A DNA stretch of 22,619 bases from a virus, in IMG/VR virus record IMGVR_UViG_3300037493_000553, positions 1-22,619 of that record, one strand, 5' to 3'. Of the stretch, positions 992 to 20,633 are shown in pieces. The position numbers and the translations under genes are program-made. The notes under the pieces were generated by a model. The model was not told the DNA's origin. It made no database searches and was given only the letters and a program-made list of their open reading frames with translations. Numbering within the stretch: position 1 is the first letter of the stretch; the number at the start of each line of letters is the position of its first letter.

Positions 992-3028
992 ATGTCACGA
1001 ATCTCCAACGAACAGAGGCTGGCGAATGTCCATAGTGAGGCGTTGGCTGAGTTTGACAGTATTCAGTCTGCGCTGCGTGACGAGCGTTTGCAGTGTTTGC
1101 AGGACCGGCGGTTTTATTCGATTGCTGGCGCACAGTGGGAGGGGCCGCTGGGTGAGCAGTTTGAGAACAAGCCGAAGTTTGAGGTAAACAAGGTTGCTTT
1201 GGCGGTGCAGAGGATTCAGAGTGAGTACCGGAACAACCGGATTACGGTGAAGTTCACGGCCAAGGATGGGAGCAATAGCAAGCTGGCCGATATCTGCGAT
1301 GGGCTGTACCGGGCTGATGAACAGGATTCGGTGGCCGAGGAGGCGTATGACAACGCCTTTGAGGAGGCGGTGGGGGGTGGGTTTGGGGCTTGGGAGTTGG
1401 AGCCGAGTTACGAGGATGAGGAAGACCCTGAGAATGAGCATCAGCGAATCAAGATCAAGCCGATTTTTGATGCTGACAGTTCGGTGTTCTTTGACTTGGA
1501 GGCCAAGCGTCAGGACAAGGCCGATGCCAAACGGTGCTTTGTACTGGTGTCGATGACACGCGAGGCGTACAGGGAAACGTACAACGATGACCCATCGTCC
1601 TGGCCGAAGGACATTCATCAGTATGAGTTTGATTGGCTGACGCCGGATATTGTGTATGTGGCGCGGTATTACCGGGTTGAGGAGGTGGCTGAGACGATCT
1701 ATATCTATCAGTCGCTGGATGGTTCTGAGGAGCGGTATTCCAAGGAGCAATTGACGGATGAGATGCTGGAGCAGTTGTATGCCATCGGCAGCAGGGAAGT
1801 GCGTCAGAAGCGCATCAAACGGCGCAAGGTGCGTTTGTATGTAATGTCAGGCTCCAAGATACTGGATGACTATGGTTACATCGTAGGGCGCAATATCCCT
1901 GTGGTGCCGGTGTATGGCAAGCGGTGGTTCATTGACAACGTAGAGCGCTGCATGGGCCATGTCCGGCTGGCGAAGGATGCCCAGCGCCTGGGCAATATGC
2001 AGCGTTCCAAACTGGCTGAGATTTCGGCACTCTCAAGTGTGGAGAAGCCAATTTTCACGCCTGAACAGGTTGCAGGCCACCAGGTCATGTGGTCTGAGGA
2101 CAATCTCAAAAATTACCCGTACCTGCTGTTGAACCCGGTCAGTGGGCCGGATGGCAGTATGCAGATTTCCGGGCCGGCTGGGTACACCAAGCCCCCGGCA
2201 GTGCCGCCTGCACTGGCTGGATTGCTTCAAATCAGCGAACAGGACATGAAAGATGTTCTGGGCAATCAGGAGCAGGGCGACAAGATTGTGAGCAATATTT
2301 CTGGCCGTGCGGTTGAGATGGTGCAGCAGCGCCTGGATATGCAGACATATATCTATATGTCGAACCAGGGCAAGGCCATTCGCCGGTGCGGTGAGATTTG
2401 GCTTGGCATGGCAAAGGAGATGTACGTCGAAGATGGCCGCAAGATGAAGGCCATTAGCAACCAATCAAAGATTCAGACGGTTCAACTGATGAAGCCGATG
2501 ATCAATGAGTCTGGTGAGATGGAGTATGAGAACGACTTGAGCAAGGCTGATTTTGATGTGGCGGTGGACGTTGGGCCGTCGAGCAGCAGCAAACGTGCGG
2601 CTACGGTTCGCGCCCTGACCGGCATCATTGCCATCACGGAAGACCCGCAGATCAAGAATGTGTTGCTCTCAATGGCGATGATGAACATGGAAGGCGAGGG
2701 TCTGACCGACATCAACGACTATTTCCGCAGCCAACTGGTGCAGATGGGGGTTGTCAAGCCGACTGAGGAAGAACAAGCCCAGTTACAGGCCATGATGGAG
2801 AACAAGCCGCAAGACATGAATGCCATGTACTTGCAGGCCGAGGCTGAGAAGGCCATTGCCCAAGCCGAACAAGCCCGTGCCAAGACGGTGGAGACGGTGG
2901 CAAGTGCTGAACTCAAGCGCGCACAGACGATGGAAACCCTGTCCAATATGGACATGGACAGCCAAGACCATGCTTTGAACATGATGAAAGAAATGGTAAC
3001 GCCGCAGCAACTGGCACCAAGTCAATAA
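992..3028 (+). CDS. Portal protein, P22 gp1-like
   Basis: Dodecameric head-tail connector through which DNA is packaged and ejected. The 678 residues compare with about 725 in P22 portal. The N-terminal part (RRFYSIAGAQWEG, then FEVNKVALAVQRIQSEYRNN, residues about 40-80) has the typical start of P22-type portals. An acidic linker (YEDEEDPENE) lies near residue 140. The C-terminal 90 residues are an Ala/Glu/Gln-rich helix (AEAEKAIAQAEQARAK) consistent with the coiled-coil barrel that projects into the P22 head. The ATG at 992 follows the terminase stop by one base, with a weak GGAAG upstream, so translation is probably coupled. The first half shares the G/T-rich codon style of the terminase gene, which fades after roughly base 1750. 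It is followed by a structured 48-nt gap before the scaffold gene. Confidence 0.93.
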   Translation: MSRISNEQRLANVHSEALAEFDSIQSALRDERLQCLQDRRFYSIAGAQWEGPLGEQFENKPKFEVNKVALAVQRIQSEYRNNRITVKFTAKDGSNSKLADICDGLYRADEQDSVAEEAYDNAFEEAVGGGFGAWELEPSYEDEEDPENEHQRIKIKPIFDADSSVFFDLEAKRQDKADAKRCFVLVSMTREAYRETYNDDPSSWPKDIHQYEFDWLTPDIVYVARYYRVEEVAETIYIYQSLDGSEERYSKEQLTDEMLEQLYAIGSREVRQKRIKRRKVRLYVMSGSKILDDYGYIVGRNIPVVPVYGKRWFIDNVERCMGHVRLAKDAQRLGNMQRSKLAEISALSSVEKPIFTPEQVAGHQVMWSEDNLKNYPYLLLNPVSGPDGSMQISGPAGYTKPPAVPPALAGLLQISEQDMKDVLGNQEQGDKIVSNISGRAVEMVQQRLDMQTYIYMSNQGKAIRRCGEIWLGMAKEMYVEDGRKMKAISNQSKIQTVQLMKPMINESGEMEYENDLSKADFDVAVDVGPSSSSKRAATVRALTGIIAITEDPQIKNVLLSMAMMNMEGEGLTDINDYFRSQLVQMGVVKPTEEEQAQLQAMMENKPQDMNAMYLQAEAEKAIAQAEQARAKTVETVASAELKRAQTMETLSNMDMDSQDHALNMMKEMVTPQQLAPSQ

Positions 3029-3057
3029 CGCCAACCACCCAGGCGTTTAATTGGGTG
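3027..3057 (+). promoter_or_regulatory. Possible H-type RNA pseudoknot in the scaffold leader
   Basis: Stem 1 pairs AACGCC (3027-3032, beginning in the portal stop codon) with GGCGTT (3042-3047). The 9-nt loop contains CACCCA (3036-3041), which is complementary to TGGGTG (3052-3057). The two 6-bp stems abut with no base between them, with connecting loops of 3 and 4 nt, a geometry allowed for a compact pseudoknot. It lies 8 nt before the scaffold Shine-Dalgarno AGAGG (3066-3070). A role in scaffold translation is inference; P22 scaffold is known to down-regulate its own synthesis after transcription. Stem 1 followed by TTTAATT could instead act as a weak terminator. Confidence 0.45.
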
Positions 3058-3076
3058 AGACTGAAAGAGGATGAGC

Positions 3077-3895
3077 ATGGACGACGAAAACGAAGTGATT
3101 GACGACAACCAGCAAGTGAAGGACGCGCCGGAACTGGATGAAACTCCAGCGCCAGAAGGTGAGGAAACCACTACTGCCGAGGATGAAATTACCGTCCAGA
3201 TTGGCGATGAGCAGCCGGCAGAAGAAGAACGTGCGCCAGATTGGGTGCGTGATTTACGCAAGCAGCATCGTGAGTTGCAGCGCAAAAACCGGGAACTGGA
3301 AGAACAGATTCGCACTGCGCGGCCATCTGTATCGGTGCAGCTTGGCAAGAAACCAACGCTGGAAGACCACAATTACGACTCTGATGCCTACGAGGCGGCG
3401 CTGAGTGAATACTTTGAGCGCAAGCGTCAGGTGGATGCCGAGGCCGAGAAGATTGAAGCCAAGCAGCGCCAAACGCAGCAAGATTGGCAAGAAAAACTCA
3501 ACAGCTATGGCAAGGCCAAGGCTGAGTTGAAGGTCAGTGACTTTGACGATGCTGAATCGGCGGTACAAGAGCAATTCAATGTCACCCAGCAGGGTATTTT
3601 GCTCCAAGGGCTGGATACGCCTGCGATGGTGGTGTATGCCTTGGGCAAGAACCCAAAACGTGCAAAAGAACTCGCGGCAATCACCGACCCGGTGAAATTT
3701 GCTGTGGCAATCGGAAAACTGGAGGAGAAATTGAAAGTCATTCGCAAAGCCCCGCCACCCCCGCCAAAACCCGTAACCGGCACTGGCCGAGTATCTGGTT
3801 CGGTGGATTCCACACTGGAGCGTTTGCGCGCTGAAGCCGAAAAAACTGGTGATATCAGTAAGGTGCTTGCATACAAGCGCCAAAAACGTGCATAA
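3077..3895 (+). CDS. Head scaffolding protein (P22 gp8 positional equivalent)
   Basis: Assembly chaperone expected inside the procapsid, lost before or during packaging. The 272 residues compare with about 303 in P22 gp8. Layout: a strongly acidic N-terminus (to about residue 55), a charged helix (LRKQHRELQRKNRELEEQI, about 60-80), a second coiled-coil stretch (YFERKRQVDAEAEKIEAKQ, about 110-150), a Pro run (APPPPPKP), and a basic C-terminal helix ending AYKRQKRA. In P22, a basic C-terminal helix pair binds coat, and the same job is likely here. Two in-frame ATGs exist. The one at 3071 touches the Shine-Dalgarno AGAGG (3066-3070), whereas 3077 is 6 nt away, so 3077 is chosen. The call rests on position between portal and coat plus composition rather than a recognised domain. 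Confidence 0.85.
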   Translation: MDDENEVIDDNQQVKDAPELDETPAPEGEETTTAEDEITVQIGDEQPAEEERAPDWVRDLRKQHRELQRKNRELEEQIRTARPSVSVQLGKKPTLEDHNYDSDAYEAALSEYFERKRQVDAEAEKIEAKQRQTQQDWQEKLNSYGKAKAELKVSDFDDAESAVQEQFNVTQQGILLQGLDTPAMVVYALGKNPKRAKELAAITDPVKFAVAIGKLEEKLKVIRKAPPPPPKPVTGTGRVSGSVDSTLERLRAEAEKTGDISKVLAYKRQKRA

Positions 3896-3952
3896 TGTGA
3901 GCCATCAGGTTTCGCAAGCCTCATAAATTGCAGTGTGATCGAGCGGCCATCC

Positions 3953-4011
3953 GGCTCCAGAATGGATGAGTTAAGCGGCGATAAGCCTTTTTTCTCATCT
4001 ATTTTGGAGTC
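3953..4011 (+). promoter_or_regulatory. Long RNA hairpin burying the coat-gene Shine-Dalgarno
   Basis: GGCTCCAGAATGGATGAG (3953-3970) pairs without a break with CTCATCTATTTTGGAGTC (3994-4011): 18 consecutive pairs, three of them G-U (3954/4010, 3960/4004, 3964/4000). All three wobbles have G in the left arm and U in the right, so they would be C-A mismatches in a minus-strand RNA; the structure favours the + transcript. The 23-nt loop can form a further hairpin, GGC-GATAA-GCC (3977-3987), extended by A-U and G-U pairs. The coat ribosome-binding site GGAG (4006-4009) lies inside the right arm, and the hairpin ends 6 nt before the ATG. Pairing is seen directly. Whether it is a translational switch, an RNase III site or a protein-binding operator is unknown. 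Confidence 0.75.
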
Positions 4012-4017
4012 CATATC

Positions 4018-5292
4018 ATGGCAAACGCATTTAGCAAGGAAGAGCGCGTAGCGTTCGAAGACATTCTCGAAGGTTTCCAGGACGCTCTTGTCCTGTCGAA
4101 AAACGTAGCGACCTACAACACCGATCAGGTGATGATGGAGCGCACGAACAACATCATCTGGCGTCCGCAGCCGTACATCGCTACGAGCTACACCGGCACC
4201 GACATGACCAGCAACTTTGACGACTACACGCAGTTGTCCGTCCCCGCTACGATTGGCTTTCCCAAGTCTGTGCCGTGGGTGATGACCGCTACCGAACTGC
4301 GCGACGCCATGCAAGAGGGCCGACTCGGTGACGCTGCCAAGCAAAAGCTGGCATCCGACATCAACGTTGCTATCATGAACGTGGCTGCCGCTCAAGGCAC
4401 GTTGGTGGTCAAGCGCACTTCGACAGCCTCCGGGTTTGATGACGTTGCTCAGTGCGAGGCCGTCATGAACGAGCAAGGCGTCCCGATGTACGAGCGGTAT
4501 CTGGCTCTGTCCACACGCGACTACAACGGCATGGCGAATGACCTGTCCAAGGCTTCGCGCTCGTTCGGCAACGACATCAGCGACCGCGCTCTGCGCAAGG
4601 CTTTCGTGGGTGAGATGGCATCCTTTGCCACCTTCAAACTCGACTATGCCAACCGCAAGGCCGCTGCCGCTGGTGGTGGTTCGATCACGATTGACACGCG
4701 AGTGGCCGGCGCCAACTACTACACCCCGAAGGCAACTTCGACGGCAGCGACTGGCGAGACGAACAACGTGGACAACCGTTTCCAGACCGTGACTGTTTCC
4801 AGCACCACCAGCGTGGCCGCTGGAGACGCCTTCACGATTGCGAACGTCAACGCTGTGCATCACATCACCAAGGGTGACACCGGCCAACCGAAGACCTTCC
4901 GGGTCATCAGCGTGACCAACGGCACCACGATGGTCATCAGCCCCCCGATCATCAGCAACCAGGGTGCAACGGATGCCGAGGCTCAGTACCAGAACGTCGT
5001 GGTCAACGCTACCAGCGCCACCGCCGCGATTGTCTGGCTGAACACCGTCACCAACTACCTGAACCCGTTCTGGCAGCGTGATGCTCTGGAAATCCTGCCG
5101 GGCCGCTACGCTGTGCCGACCGATGCCGGTGCCGCAGTGCTGCGCGCTTCGACCGACCAGGGCATCGAGTTGGTGTGGCAGAAGCAGTACGACATCAACA
5201 CCATGAAGACCAAGTATCGCCTTGATACCTTGTTCGGCGTGGTGAACAAGCAGCCGGAAATGTCCGGTGTAATGTTGTTTTCGCAAACATAA
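4018..5292 (+). CDS. Major capsid (coat) protein, P22 gp5-like
   Basis: Main shell protein with the HK97 fold. The 424 residues compare with 430 for P22 coat. Recognisable P22-coat features: TNNIIWRPQPY near residue 43, corresponding to the SNTIWMP region of gp5; LASDINVAIMNVAAAQGTLV near 118-137; and VDNRFQTVTVSSTTSVAAGD near 251-270, which closely matches the gp5 segment VDNRFATVTLSATTG. The middle is long enough to hold the inserted I-domain of the P22 family. The ATG at 4018 has GGAG at 4006-4009, but that site sits in a long hairpin (3953-4011). Codon use is GGC/GGT- and C-rich, as expected of a highly expressed gene, and unlike terminase. Downstream, AAGGAA leads into the next head gene after a 9-nt gap. 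Confidence 0.95.
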   Translation: MANAFSKEERVAFEDILEGFQDALVLSKNVATYNTDQVMMERTNNIIWRPQPYIATSYTGTDMTSNFDDYTQLSVPATIGFPKSVPWVMTATELRDAMQEGRLGDAAKQKLASDINVAIMNVAAAQGTLVVKRTSTASGFDDVAQCEAVMNEQGVPMYERYLALSTRDYNGMANDLSKASRSFGNDISDRALRKAFVGEMASFATFKLDYANRKAAAAGGGSITIDTRVAGANYYTPKATSTAATGETNNVDNRFQTVTVSSTTSVAAGDAFTIANVNAVHHITKGDTGQPKTFRVISVTNGTTMVISPPIISNQGATDAEAQYQNVVVNATSATAAIVWLNTVTNYLNPFWQRDALEILPGRYAVPTDAGAAVLRASTDQGIELVWQKQYDINTMKTKYRLDTLFGVVNKQPEMSGVMLFSQT

Positions 5293-6130: not shown

Positions 6131-6438
6131 TTTTCCCGACCATCGTTTACCGTTGCCCTGGCGCACACTTTGGCCCGGATGGCAGCACGTTTAACTCCAT
6201 CGGCGCGGCTGATCTGGAGGCGTACGAGGCCGCGATTGCAGCCGGCTGGAGCGCCACCCTACCCGCTGCCGTCAAACTGTGGCGCAATGGCCCCGATGAG
6301 CCAAAGCCAGAGCCAGCCGATACCGCACCGCCGACACGCGATGAGATGCTGGAGCAGGCCGACAAACTCAAGATTCAGGTGGACAAGCGCTGGAGCGATG
6401 CCACCCTTCTGAAAAAGATCAATGAGGCCATGACATGA
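6127..6438 (+). CDS. Small head protein with C-terminal LEM/HeH-like helix pair
   Basis: 103 residues, starting with GTG in a GTGA overlap with the previous stop; AAAGGG (6115-6120) is 6 nt upstream and supports this start. The N-terminal part (IVYRCPGAHFGPDGSTFNS, then an AAIAAGWSATLPAAV segment) is a short motif seen in many phage head-region proteins. A Pro/Glu-rich linker follows, then residues about 69-103 (RDEMLEQADKLKIQVDKRWS onward) look like the small helix-extended-loop-helix fold (HeH/LEM/SAP-like) found in phage head-assembly and DNA-associated proteins. The role is unknown, probably a minor virion or assembly protein. Its end overlaps the gp4-like start by ATGA. Confidence 0.7.
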   Translation: MIFPTIVYRCPGAHFGPDGSTFNSIGAADLEAYEAAIAAGWSATLPAAVKLWRNGPDEPKPEPADTAPPTRDEMLEQADKLKIQVDKRWSDATLLKKINEAMT

Positions 6439-6914
6439 GCTACAGCAAGCGCCAATTCGTCACCGCTGCGTTCGAGGAGATTGGGCTTGCGTCTTACGTT
6501 TTCGACCTTCAACCCGAGCAACTTGATTCTGCCGTTCAGAAACTGGACAGCATGATGGCCGCTTGGAATGCCGCAGGCATCCGGCTCAGTTACCCCATTC
6601 CCGGCAACCCTGACAACACGGACATCGACGCCATCACGAACGTACCCGATTCGGCCAATGAGGCCATCGTCATGAGTTTGGCCGTGCGACTGGCCCCAGG
6701 CTTGGGAAAGGCTGTCAGCATCGACACCAAGGTGAGCGCGAAGCAGGGCTACAACACGCTACTGAGCCGCGCCGCTGTGCCGCCACAAATGCAGTTCCCG
6801 TCGAATATGCCTGCCGGTGCAGGTAACAAGCCTTGGAGCATTGACGACCCATTCTTGGTCGATCCCGTCGATGCGCTTTTGGCCGGCCCTGACGGCGACA
6901 TTCAATTTACCTGA
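6435..6914 (+). CDS. Tail accessory factor, P22 gp4-like
   Basis: In P22, gp4 forms a ring below the portal, making the first part of the head-tail junction; it is 166 residues, compared with 159 here. The N-terminal pattern (helix, then LDSMMAAWNAAGIRLSYPI, residues about 37-56) matches gp4's DLEAMMAEWYQDGI region. The diagnostic segment FPSNMPAGAGN (121-131) corresponds to YPSRMPTGSGN in gp4. The middle helix LAVRLAPGLGKAVSI matches the gp4 ACRIAPDYALEA region. The start overlaps the previous stop (ATGA) with GAGG 7 nt upstream, so expression is probably coupled. This is one of the most secure P22-family matches here apart from coat and gp10. Confidence 0.9.
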   Translation: MSYSKRQFVTAAFEEIGLASYVFDLQPEQLDSAVQKLDSMMAAWNAAGIRLSYPIPGNPDNTDIDAITNVPDSANEAIVMSLAVRLAPGLGKAVSIDTKVSAKQGYNTLLSRAAVPPQMQFPSNMPAGAGNKPWSIDDPFLVDPVDALLAGPDGDIQFT

Positions 6915-10058: not shown

Positions 10059-10313
10059 ATGGACGCAAAACTGAAAGCGGCTGGTGTGTCAGGCTATAAC
10101 AAGCCGAAGCGCACCCCGTCACATCCCACGAAAAGCCATGTTGTCGTGGCTAAGTCTGGGGATGAGACAAAGACGATTCGGTTCGGTCAGCAGGGCGTGA
10201 AAGGCTCTCCCGAGGGTTCAAAGCGTAACGAGGCATTCAAAGCCCGTCACGCTGAGAACATCGCCAAGGGCAAGATGAGCGCGGCGTATTGGGCTAACAA
10301 GGTCAAGTGGTAA
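10059..10313 (+). CDS. Small basic conserved phage protein (84 aa)
   Basis: 84 residues, Lys/His-rich. It begins MDAKLKAAGVSGYNKPKRTP, then has SHPTKSHVVVAK, a central TIRFGQQGVKG, and ends GKMSAAYWANKVKW. I recognise this as a type of small protein recurrent in podovirus structural regions, but know no assigned function. The ATG at 10059 is preferred because it sits one base after the previous stop; longer readings would overlap the 54-aa gene. Its TAA overlaps the ATG of the gp10-like gene by one base (TAATG). The basic, aromatic C-terminus suggests DNA or RNA contact inside the head; this is inference. Confidence 0.75.
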   Translation: MDAKLKAAGVSGYNKPKRTPSHPTKSHVVVAKSGDETKTIRFGQQGVKGSPEGSKRNEAFKARHAENIAKGKMSAAYWANKVKW

Positions 10314-11716
10314 TGCAAATCCCTATCCTCAACGGAATCTACACTGACAACGGGCCGGACGTGCGAACGTCCTACCCTGTCAACATGGTTCCGATTGCCC
10401 TGCAAAACGGCACGTCAACGGGATACCTGCGCCCTGCTTCCGGCATTGAGGATTTCGGCACCGGTCCCGGCATTGACCGTGGCGGCATTGAGTGGGATGG
10501 CATTTGCTATCGCGTCATGGGCAGCAAGCTGGTGCGCGTCGATGCTGACGGCACAGTAACAGTGCTGGGTGACGTTGGCGGCGGCACTGAACTGGTCACG
10601 ATGGATTACAGCTTCACCCTGCTGGCAATCGCATCGGGCGGCAATCTGTTTTATTGGGACGGTACAACCCTTACTCAGGTGACAGACCCAGACCTTGGCC
10701 TGGTGCTGGATGTGATCTGGATTGACGGCTATTTCATGACCACAGATGGCGAAAACATCGTGGTGACGGAATTGTCCGACCCGACGCAGGTCAACCCGCT
10801 GAAATACGGTAGCGCCGAGGTAGACCCCGATCCGGTGGTTGCGGTTCTCAAGCTCCGCAACGAAGCCTATGTGGTTGGCCGGCACACAATCGAAATCTTC
10901 GACAACGTAGGCGGCGATTTCTTTCCGTTCCAACGCATTGACGGCGCACAAGTGCCCAAAGGCGCAGTCGGCACCCATGCCTGCTGCCTGTTCATGGATT
11001 CGGTGGCCTTCCTTGGCAGCGCACGGAATGAGGCGCCATCCATTTACATGGGCGTCAACGCGACACCGACCAAGATTTCCACCCGCGAGATTGACCAGAT
11101 TCTGTCCACCTACACCGAGGAAGAACTTTCTGCGGTGCTGCTGGAGGCCAAGGTCGAAAAAAACCAACAGCAGCTGATGGTTCACCTGCCAGACCGGACG
11201 CTGGTGTTTGATGGCCTTGCATCGCAGGCGCTGTCTAATCCGGTCTGGTTCACGCTCACCAGCGCGATAGAGGGCTTTTCGCAGTATCAGGCGCGTAGCC
11301 ATGTCTGGGCCTACAGCAAGTGGATTGTGGGCCATCCTGGCACGTTTGATCTGGGTGTTTTGGTGAATGACGTTTCCACCCACTACGGCGAAGATGTGCG
11401 CTGGGAGTTTGGCACGACCATGCTCTACAACGAGTCGAAAGGCGCCATCGTCCATGAGTTGGAGTTGGTCTCGCTCACCGGGCGGGTTGCACTCGGCACC
11501 AGCCCACAGATCGCCACCAGCTACTCATGGGACGGCATGACCTGGAGTCAGGACAAGTTTGTCACGGTGGGCAGCATTGGCGACCGGACAAAGCGCATTT
11601 GCTGGCTGTCAAACGGCTTCATGCGAAGCGTTCGGATGCAGCGATTCCAAGGCGACACGCAAGCCCATGTGTCATTTACGAGGCTTGAGGCGCGAATTGA
11701 GCCTCTTGCGTTCTAA
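10313..11716 (+). CDS. Head completion / DNA stabilisation protein, P22 gp10-like
   Basis: In P22, gp10 forms the hexameric tube that closes the portal after packaging and receives the needle. The 467 residues compare with 472 in P22. Matches by eye to gp10: YPVNMV near 21-26, GYLRPASGI near 37-45 (gp10 GYLRSFPGI), EAPSIYMG near 242 (gp10 GAPSVYI), and YTEEELSAVLLEAK at 267 followed by LMVHLPDRTLVFDG at 288 (gp10 YTAEEMATGVMETL and LLIIHLPRHVLVYD). Repeating blades are compatible with the beta-propeller body. The start ATG overlaps the previous TAA (TAATG). An in-frame GTG at 10307 is less likely because it lies further inside the preceding gene. Confidence 0.92.
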   Translation: MQIPILNGIYTDNGPDVRTSYPVNMVPIALQNGTSTGYLRPASGIEDFGTGPGIDRGGIEWDGICYRVMGSKLVRVDADGTVTVLGDVGGGTELVTMDYSFTLLAIASGGNLFYWDGTTLTQVTDPDLGLVLDVIWIDGYFMTTDGENIVVTELSDPTQVNPLKYGSAEVDPDPVVAVLKLRNEAYVVGRHTIEIFDNVGGDFFPFQRIDGAQVPKGAVGTHACCLFMDSVAFLGSARNEAPSIYMGVNATPTKISTREIDQILSTYTEEELSAVLLEAKVEKNQQQLMVHLPDRTLVFDGLASQALSNPVWFTLTSAIEGFSQYQARSHVWAYSKWIVGHPGTFDLGVLVNDVSTHYGEDVRWEFGTTMLYNESKGAIVHELELVSLTGRVALGTSPQIATSYSWDGMTWSQDKFVTVGSIGDRTKRICWLSNGFMRSVRMQRFQGDTQAHVSFTRLEARIEPLAF

Positions 11717-18734: not shown

Positions 18735-20633
18735 ATGACCTCACCAGTTTTCACCCCCCTGCAAATGTTCTTCAACACCAGTGGCGCGCCACTGACTGAC
18801 GGCTATCTGTACATCGGCACAGCCTCGCAGAACCCGCAGACCAACCCTATCGCGGTCTATTGGGATGCAGCAGGCACGATACCCGCTGCCCAGCCTATTC
18901 GTACATCAGGCGGCTATCCGGTACGCAATGGATCCCCGGCGACTGTGTTTGTGCTGGCAACAGACTTCTCGCTGATCGTGCGCGACAAGTCGTCCAGCTT
19001 GGTGTTTAGCCGGCTGTCGGGCAATGCGTTCTCGGCTGAGTGGGTGACATACACCCCCGCAGGCACTGGCGCGGTGGCGACGACTGTGCAGACTAAGCTG
19101 CGTGAGAGTGTGAGTGTGTTTGACTTCATGACCGCTGCGCAGATTGCTGCGGTTCAGTCGTATGCGCTTACAACAGATGTGACCACCCCAGTGCAGGCAG
19201 CAATGGATGCGGCATGGACAATGCGCGCCGACTTGTTTATGCCAAGTGGCGGCTATTTGGTCACAGGGCTTACCTTGCCTGGAACTTACCCAACGCTGGA
19301 TCAGCGGGATCGAGCCATTCGTATTTATGGACAAGGATATGGTAATCCTTTTGCAAATGGAAACACAGGAGGCACGGTACTTAAAAGTGTAACCAATGCG
19401 CCGATATTTACTGACAGGTCTTTTACCGCACCTAACGCTCAAGGTACATACGAGATTGATCACATTCGATTTGACGGCACTTCTACCACCCCGGTAGTTC
19501 AGTTTTACGGGTTCTACGGCACATCTTCGTTTTACAACAACGTCATTTACCAACGTGGAACTGGCGATGGGCTAAAAATTATTTATGGCGCAACTGGTCA
19601 CATTTACGAAAACTACGCAGTCAACAAAGATTTTGTGACGGTTGGATTGGGAGCCTCGCGTACAGGCATTGGGTTCAATTTACCTCTGACATATACAAGC
19701 GGCTTGACAACTTTTAGCAAAAATTCATCCAGGGGATGGCTAACTGGTTTTCAAATTGGTGGCGGTGGGGCTAGTCCGATCAGTACAAGAATCGTTGATT
19801 GCGAATGCTCTACTGTTTACAACGGTATTGTTGTCGCGAGCACTTGCGACAAAACCGTAATTGACAGTTGCTACTTTGAAGGCGGCGACGGCGGGGTCGG
19901 CATTTATGACGCCGGAAAATATACCGTTATTCGGAACAACGCAATATATCCAGGATTTTTAAAGGGCGTTGAGTCATCAGTTGCAACTAATTTTGGAACA
20001 CTTATTGATGGCAATATTATTTCAATGGGTAATGTTGTTGGCTCGACAGGCGTTGTTGTTTCTGCAAATGCCGCTGCTTCTTTTGGCGCAAAATCAGAAA
20101 CCAATAACGCCATTTTGGTTACTGCTGGAACTGCAAGTTGCACAGGCCTTTCTTTGTCGGGGCTTGATTCTCGCGTAACGGTTACAGGAAACTTTTTCTC
20201 TTCTTTACCTTGGACTGGCTCGGGATCAAACGCAATTGTTGATACTGTTACTAACGGGGCGCGAGGATATACGACAGGCATCAACGGAACCCAAGATTTT
20301 CCTAAGCTGAACCAAGGCGCTATCTCGTTCAGCCAACCGGCAGCAGCATTTACGCAGGCTGACGTTACAGCCAATACATTGACCGTTCCTGACGGAAGTT
20401 ATTTCGTTTGCTCTGCTACTGGTGCTGCCAGCGTCCTGTTGTTTTCTGCTGGGTTGACCAGTGGAAGGTATGTGACGTTTAGAACGACCACCGCAAATAT
20501 GTCGTTTGAAAACTCTGCGTATAACAAAGTTGCTGGGGGTGTCAGTTTCACCGGGCCGGGGACAATCAGCTTTTTGATTGACCGCGTCGGGGCTGATAGC
20601 TACGCCTATGAAGTTTCACGAACGGTGTTCTGA
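18735..20633 (+). CDS. Tailspike: P22-like head-binding domain plus right-handed beta-helix
   Basis: 632 residues, near the 666 of P22 tailspike. Residues 1-110 form the head-binding domain (TDGYLYIG, NPIAVYWDAAGTIPAAQPIR, GGYPVRNGSP). A linker (TKLRESVSVFDFMTAAQ) of the kind that precedes pectate-lyase-like helices follows, then PVQAAMDAAWTMRADLFMPS. Residues about 160-520 carry short repeated strands typical of a parallel beta-helix (STRIVDCECSTVYNGIVVAS, CYFEGGDGGVGIYDAG, YTVIRNNAIYP, GTLIDGNIISMG). The C-terminal domain ends GADSYAYEVSRTVF and may be the trimerisation unit. It should bind, and perhaps cleave, a surface polysaccharide; the catalytic acids cannot be assigned by reading. GGAG (18725-18728) is 6 nt before the ATG. 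From about 19300 the codons become more AT-rich, consistent with swapping of the receptor-binding part. Confidence 0.9.
   Translation: MTSPVFTPLQMFFNTSGAPLTDGYLYIGTASQNPQTNPIAVYWDAAGTIPAAQPIRTSGGYPVRNGSPATVFVLATDFSLIVRDKSSSLVFSRLSGNAFSAEWVTYTPAGTGAVATTVQTKLRESVSVFDFMTAAQIAAVQSYALTTDVTTPVQAAMDAAWTMRADLFMPSGGYLVTGLTLPGTYPTLDQRDRAIRIYGQGYGNPFANGNTGGTVLKSVTNAPIFTDRSFTAPNAQGTYEIDHIRFDGTSTTPVVQFYGFYGTSSFYNNVIYQRGTGDGLKIIYGATGHIYENYAVNKDFVTVGLGASRTGIGFNLPLTYTSGLTTFSKNSSRGWLTGFQIGGGGASPISTRIVDCECSTVYNGIVVASTCDKTVIDSCYFEGGDGGVGIYDAGKYTVIRNNAIYPGFLKGVESSVATNFGTLIDGNIISMGNVVGSTGVVVSANAAASFGAKSETNNAILVTAGTASCTGLSLSGLDSRVTVTGNFFSSLPWTGSGSNAIVDTVTNGARGYTTGINGTQDFPKLNQGAISFSQPAAAFTQADVTANTLTVPDGSYFVCSATGAASVLLFSAGLTSGRYVTFRTTTANMSFENSAYNKVAGGVSFTGPGTISFLIDRVGADSYAYEVSRTVF

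Follow-up and report, generated by a model that had tools for sequence, protein, structure and literature searches.

The scaffolding protein of phage P22, the product of gene 8, reportedly regulates its own synthesis after transcription, as King, Hall and Casjens are said to have described in 1978 and both Casjens and Adams and Wyckoff and Casjens in 1985. Although this autoregulation has been known since about 1978, we know of no defined RNA target for it, and scaffold autoregulation was not found in the searched passages of P22-related papers.

The closest described pseudoknot is that of the T4 gene 32 leader. It is located some 67 nt upstream, separated from the ribosome-binding site by A+U-rich repeats, and is bound by the single-strand DNA-binding protein (PMC3014915). 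In E. coli rpsO, a pseudoknot is part of the translational operator through which S15 exerts autogenous control (PMC3014915). According to this 2010 review, only one viral pseudoknot was known in translational autoregulation (PMC3014915).

The DNA analysed here, hereafter the window, is the whole virus record IMGVR_UViG_3300037493_000553 of IMG/VR (22,619 bases). Profile matches place a portal gene (P22_portal), a scaffold gene (phrog_648) and a P22-type coat gene in this order, with the following features in and around the leader of the scaffold gene:

992-3028, plus strand: portal gene (PF16510 P22_portal), its stop overlapping the start of PK-S
3027-3057, plus strand: PK-S, the scaffold-leader pseudoknot, from sequence and inverted repeats, relatives and covariation
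3027-3032 with 3042-3047, plus strand: PK-S stem S1, AACGCC with GGCGTT
3033-3035, plus strand: PK-S loop L1, AAC, 3 nt
3036-3041 with 3052-3057, plus strand: PK-S stem S2, CACCCA with TGGGTG
3048-3051, plus strand: PK-S loop L3, TAAT, 4 nt
3058-3059, plus strand: AG directly 3' of S2, from the 63-row alignment
3066-3070, plus strand: scaffold Shine-Dalgarno AGAGG, read from the sequence, 8 nt past PK-S
3077-3895, plus strand: scaffold gene (phrog_648 head scaffolding protein, E 1.3e-55), ATG 3077 preferred over ATG 3071
4018-5292, plus strand: coat gene (PF11651 P22_CoatProtein), downstream of a second (coat) leader

The spacing of AGAGG suits ATG 3077 better than ATG 3071. The portal stop TAA occupies 3026-3028, so that PK-S starts within the stop codon, and zero nucleotides separate the 5' strand of S2 from the 3' strand of S1. 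The two 6-bp stems and the loops of the original prediction were thus exact, and the coordinates agree with its placement between the portal stop and the scaffold Shine-Dalgarno. Elsewhere in the window, a P22-like head and tail module is represented by a P22 tail accessory factor (6435-6914, PF11650), a phage stabilisation protein (10307-11716, PF11134) and, slightly below its cut-off, a weak match to a beta-helix family (18735-20633, PF13229).

The T4-type gene 32 element and PK-S are both H-type pseudoknots with two coaxial stems upstream of the ribosome-binding site of the adjoining gene. Unlike the T4 element, pseudoknots of the PK-S type lie only 6-22 nt from the start codon, the gene encodes a head scaffold (phrog_648) rather than a single-strand DNA-binding protein, and A+U-rich repeats are absent between PK-S and the start in the window (3058-3076, read directly). 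The rpsO operator likewise contains a pseudoknot, and rpsO is a ribosomal protein gene, unlike the scaffold gene behind PK-S.

An unbiased whole-window search for perfect 6+6-bp H-type pseudoknots returned the PK-S site alone (on both strands, as its reverse complement qualifies too), and any such pseudoknot was held by 4 of 40 dinucleotide shuffles of the window. A stricter descriptor built from relatives, which demands an L1 ending in C, a C-G pair opening S2 and AG after S2, gave two matches on both strands of the window, PK-S and one coat-leader site, where shuffles predict 0.13 matches per window at score 9.5 and 15 shuffles yielded none at score 11 or more. Nested folding of the scaffold leader was unremarkable (z -0.17), because pseudoknots cannot be represented by nested minimum-energy folding; the strong evidence for PK-S is comparative. 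Furthermore, Rfam 15 gave no match at or above the gathering threshold in the window or in 15 related loci, and permissive Rfam scans gave only matches below threshold.

The same architecture, built from altered stems, was seen when the leaders of 80 related virus loci and of three named phages were compared. The window has CGCC/GGCG as its S1 core, most relatives have CGGC/GCCG, and others have TGGC/GCCA, CGGA/TCCG or AGGC/GCCT; the S2 variants include CACCCA/TGGGTG, CGCGCG/CGCGCG, CGCTAG/CTAGCG and CGGCTG/CAGCCG. The descriptor motif was found just 5' of the scaffold start in 169 of 212 loci encoding a scaffold relative (collected with several scaffold queries, overlapping loci counted). Many of the other 43 are truncated by the contig end, and two (L115 and L146) carry the motif but failed the start-codon rule of the script; uncut leaders without it include L039, the L045 group, L204, L212 and L213. 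The motif rate was 0.0003 in shuffled leaders (64 non-redundant leaders, themselves chosen for carrying the motif, with 50 shuffles each), and 3 of 1,104 control leaders of other genes had the motif (the raw count was 4 of 1,105, one being the window's own scaffold leader under a different locus id). In a gene-blind pattern scan, the stems paired in 21 among at least 80 matches listed, and among these matches 18 of the 21 pairing sites had a scaffold homologue downstream.

Among 23 named phage records examined, the strict form is carried by eight (L082, L083, PfAn1 L084, Shewanella ZP9 L205, APSE-1 L206, phiSG1 L207, Sf6 L208 and E. coli Huey L218), and the topology with a different tail by C130_2, STP9, Skarpretter, PVA1, MW202520 and MW202674. 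Among nine genome contigs examined, the motif was present in L319, L320, L321, L322 and Pseudorhodoferax L323, and the hosts of motif-bearing phages include Pseudomonas fluorescens, Shewanella and Shigella. A tendency of the strict form to track scaffold homology among the named phages was suggestive and was not counted as evidence. As separate observations, the scaffold leader of L501 seems to hold two tandem pseudoknots, the second ending AACTG-AG, and those of L045, L046, L049, L059 and L060 hold none; in L045, a short hairpin (TAGTGGA-CAGA-TCCACTA) immediately precedes the scaffold start, and little of a Shine-Dalgarno is present.

In three alignments of scaffold leaders, compensatory changes bear out S1 as well as S2. 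In the largest (A3, 63 of 65 non-redundant motifs, L048 and L057 being omitted for their 4-bp S2 and 2-nt L1, and about ten shorter-stem rows misaligned by MAFFT being retained as noise), both partners had changed in 11 of 12 pairs. The covariation score of 0.393 was reached by none of 500 shuffles, and the best slid control gave 0.061. In this alignment 89.1% of cells pair, a figure that is partly circular as the descriptor that chose the rows demands pairing, and the real evidence is the variety of compensatory pairs, not the percentage. The AG after S2 and the last C of L1 are invariant across the 63 rows, both likewise demanded by the descriptor. Separate searches of three scaffold families gave concordant results. 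In the MW202674 family (A4, all 35 unique leaders, five finder misses and L510 being placed by hand), 28 distinct rows showed two-sided changes in 9 of 10 pairs, with a score of 0.594 against 0.105 for the control; in the Sf6 family with APSE-1 and phiSG1 (A5, L489 omitted, L206 and L207 added), 10 distinct rows showed them in 4 of 9 pairs (0.281 against 0.084). In the C130_2 family, the topology is present in 5 of 6 unique leaders, with a CG tail rather than AG. The looser finder used for these families hit shuffled leaders at rates of 0.041 (MW202674 family), 0.018 (Sf6) and 0.017 (C130_2). Pairing between the last C of L1 and the G of AG, with the A bulged out, suits the main family; it was dropped as a general rule, as the GT, GC and GA tails of the MW202674 family generally misfit.

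Thus both helices are kept by compensatory change across related phages, including Shigella phage Sf6. The original prediction had named two outcomes against it, neither stem being conserved in relatives, or stem 1 alone forming and acting as a terminator, and neither was observed: no terminator-like site lies at PK-S, the sole one in 2900-4100 being at 3681-3695. Sequence comparison and folding thus identify 3027-3057 as a cis-acting RNA pseudoknot that is conserved in the scaffold mRNA.

The position of the element was compared across 46 non-redundant leaders that also had a portal match; a few of the portal ends are outliers derived from partial matches. The pseudoknot end lies 6-22 nt before the scaffold AUG, and the portal stop falls before or at the pseudoknot start in 30 leaders and inside the pseudoknot in 11; in the other 5 it coincides with the pseudoknot end or lies beyond it. 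Since the distance to the AUG is near-constant while the portal stop drifts, the element belongs to the scaffold start and not to the portal end, which strongly bears out its placement as a structured scaffold leader. In C130_2, two other genes separate portal and scaffold, and the variant pseudoknot still precedes scaffold. A Shine-Dalgarno-burying helix competing with PK-S was not found (mean z +0.66 over 65 scaffold leaders).

These positions bear on two other explanations. The overlap of PK-S with the portal stop in the window, and the 5 of 46 leaders in which the pseudoknot lies inside the portal frame, might suggest that it stimulates frameshifting or readthrough, acts as a terminator or is a by-product of coding constraint on the 3' end of portal. 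Any of these is barely conceivable, as the distances from portal stop to scaffold ATG span all three frames (15, 20 and 11 of the 46 leaders), the terminator is missing at the site, most portal stops lie upstream of or at the pseudoknot start, and both stems covary. A translational element that fixes the scaffold:portal ratio without any ligand, either by marking the 5' edge of the initiating 30S or by being unfolded by ribosomes finishing portal, would agree with the near-constant AUG distance, the frequent location of the portal stop within or near the pseudoknot and the lack of a burying helix in scaffold leaders. We nevertheless consider it unlikely, given that the portal-stop position is not conserved, that C130_2 keeps its variant before scaffold despite the two intervening genes, and that pseudoknots related to it turn up again in a coat leader with the layout of a switch.

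This second leader, lying between the scaffold and coat genes, carries the following features in the window:

3907-3931, plus strand: PK-A, with S1 3907-3909/3919-3921 and S2 3914-3917/3928-3931, then AG; moderate support
3941-3968, plus strand: PK-B, with S1 3941-3944/3954-3957 and S2 3948-3953/3963-3968, then AG
3953-4011, plus strand: alternative coat-leader helix, 3953-3970 with 3994-4011, 18 bp

Two additional pseudoknots of this kind, PK-A and PK-B, are found in long coat leaders, which as a rule measure 118-201 nt, and PK-B is the second window site of the descriptor that finds PK-S. The strand of PK-B from the S1 3' strand to GAGU pairs with the region around the coat Shine-Dalgarno, and the resulting 18-bp helix encloses this Shine-Dalgarno (GGAG, 4006-4009); because the strands are shared, PK-B and the burying helix cannot coexist. 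The window's burying helix has -28.4 kcal/mol (z -6.4) and dominates the minimum-energy fold of the coat leader (MFE -52.3, z -4.8). It is present in all 27 aligned coat leaders (A2, 27 of 30 non-redundant leaders; L119, L085 and L181, short-leader loci picked up by a loose pattern, were dropped), with negative z throughout (mean -4.0) and pair types differing along the helix among relatives; in 14 of the 27 it was unmatched by any of 200 shuffles, and the weakest helices were those of L021 (z -1.1) and L061 (z -1.3).

When RNAalifold, which is blind to pseudoknots, was run with no structure supplied, the consensus consisted of stem 2 of PK-A and stem 2 of PK-B. When stem 1 was included, 93.7% of cells were paired, 8 of 16 pairs showed two-sided changes and the covariation score was 0.223, as against 0.073 for the best slide. 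The number of further pair types in the coat leaders did not exceed that of shuffles, 253 of 500 of which reached it. PK-A is the weaker of the two, with strict pairing in 45 of 73 unique leaders, most misses retaining S1 with a 3-bp S2. The PK-B pattern gave 121 matches among the loci examined (overlaps counted), 111 of them 51-70 nt before the coat start, 4 at 534-537 nt before coat, 2 off the contig and 4 by chance. Among 202 loci with both scaffold and coat genes, the coat leader exceeds 60 nt in 132, and of these the PK-A sequence pattern and the PK-B descriptor each occur in 119; PK-S is paired with a short coat leader in 48 of the 202, so the coat half is not universal.

Together, sequence comparison and folding reveal related pseudoknots in the coat mRNA of the same phage and an alternative fold that buries the Shine-Dalgarno. 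Judged from its sequence, the coat leader is a predicted translational switch, in which a conserved fold and a Shine-Dalgarno-burying helix exclude each other. The suggested link between the scaffold leader and a structured coat leader is thereby strongly supported. The coat-leader hairpin of the original prediction is the OFF state of this predicted switch, the other state being the same kind of pseudoknot. As in translational riboswitches and other bistable leaders, the Shine-Dalgarno pairs with a strand otherwise held by a conserved upstream fold; unlike riboswitches, this leader uses small tandem pseudoknots and has no Rfam match. A small-molecule riboswitch, with compact pseudoknot aptamers and a Shine-Dalgarno-burying platform, would account for this classic switch logic, yet it is highly improbable, because in the scans run the element occurs almost exclusively before phage head genes, matches no Rfam riboswitch and has no obvious metabolite link.

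In P22-type phages, stem 1 is absent in all 80 loci examined (5 unique leaders), and a hairpin corresponding to S2 plus AG is present; the idea that P22 carries the full pseudoknot was therefore rejected. Portal and coat homologues are kept in these phages. P22 gene 8 shares gene position and product role with the scaffold gene of the window and is autoregulated post-transcriptionally; its leader differs in having only the hairpin C-CGGC..GCCG-AG without stem 1. This hairpin is a candidate site of P22 scaffold autoregulation. The loci concerned are L209 (upstream of 3683), L327, L328 and L212 (upstream of 1354). The P22-type hairpin reads C-CGGC-AGTGTA-GCCG-AG, and in Proteus phage Brookers the corresponding stem is CGAC/GTCG, which differs by a compensatory change.

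Because the shape rather than the sequence is kept, the site is nearly fixed and the motif recurs before two head genes, the pseudoknot points to a translational operator for head-protein ratios, and in many P22 relatives it probably sets the amount of each head protein made. That it is such a control element and is bound by free scaffold protein is, in our judgement, about evenly balanced. Scaffold is the likeliest ligand, since P22 scaffold reportedly represses itself and since P22-type phages keep portal and coat while lacking stem 1; at the same time, the lack of stem 1 in P22, where the autoregulation was measured, and the uncut scaffold leaders without the motif count against this overall reading. 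The same operator may instead be bound by coat, portal or another RNA-binding protein of phage or host, which would fit the motif before coat and its occurrence in phages of several hosts and in the Pseudorhodoferax genome contig. We regard such a ligand as quite unlikely, and portal or coat as the sole ligand is weakened by the retention of both in P22-type phages without stem 1.

If the pseudoknot is a protein-binding operator, a free capsid-assembly protein, most likely scaffold, would stabilise PK-S beside the scaffold ribosome-binding site and so reduce scaffold initiation. Repression there would need steric occlusion, because the scaffold leader has no burying helix. Where the coat leader is long, this ligand would also stabilise PK-B and open the burying helix, which would increase coat translation; scaffold and coat synthesis would then follow assembly. 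A single pseudoknot aptamer with opposite outputs in two leaders of one phage, by which free scaffold protein shuts scaffold off by occlusion at PK-S and turns coat on by releasing the coat Shine-Dalgarno at PK-B, is a tentative and rather unlikely proposal, the opposite outputs being what we infer from leader anatomy alone. If true, this two-output aptamer would amount to an RNA circuit that keeps the coat:scaffold ratio steady while heads are assembled, and would span a broad group of phages with P22-like heads.

Such an element was not described in the accessible parts of the literature searched, which leaves out most subscription journals. This looks like an undescribed RNA family of small pseudoknots, one of which precedes scaffold, whereas a tandem pair coupled to a bistable switch precedes coat. 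It offers an exact candidate site for scaffold autoregulation in laboratory phages such as Sf6, and, with the stem swaps already made by evolution, this site makes the autoregulation question directly testable.

Some minor features of the coat leader were also observed. Its tandem pseudoknots and mutually exclusive Shine-Dalgarno-burying helix (3907-4011 in the window) form a conserved RNA family in themselves. At the head of long coat leaders such as those of L005, L017 and L266, a promoter-like TTGCAC or TTGACC stands before TACATT, suggesting a separate coat transcript; a scan of the window gave no clear match to this motif. In L018, a gene is inserted between the coat leader and coat (3902-4378), with the same spacing in L019, L261 and L231; the L018 gene product is of the endonuclease VII type (PF02945, E 2.8e-22), and the gene is perhaps a mobile one of the homing type.
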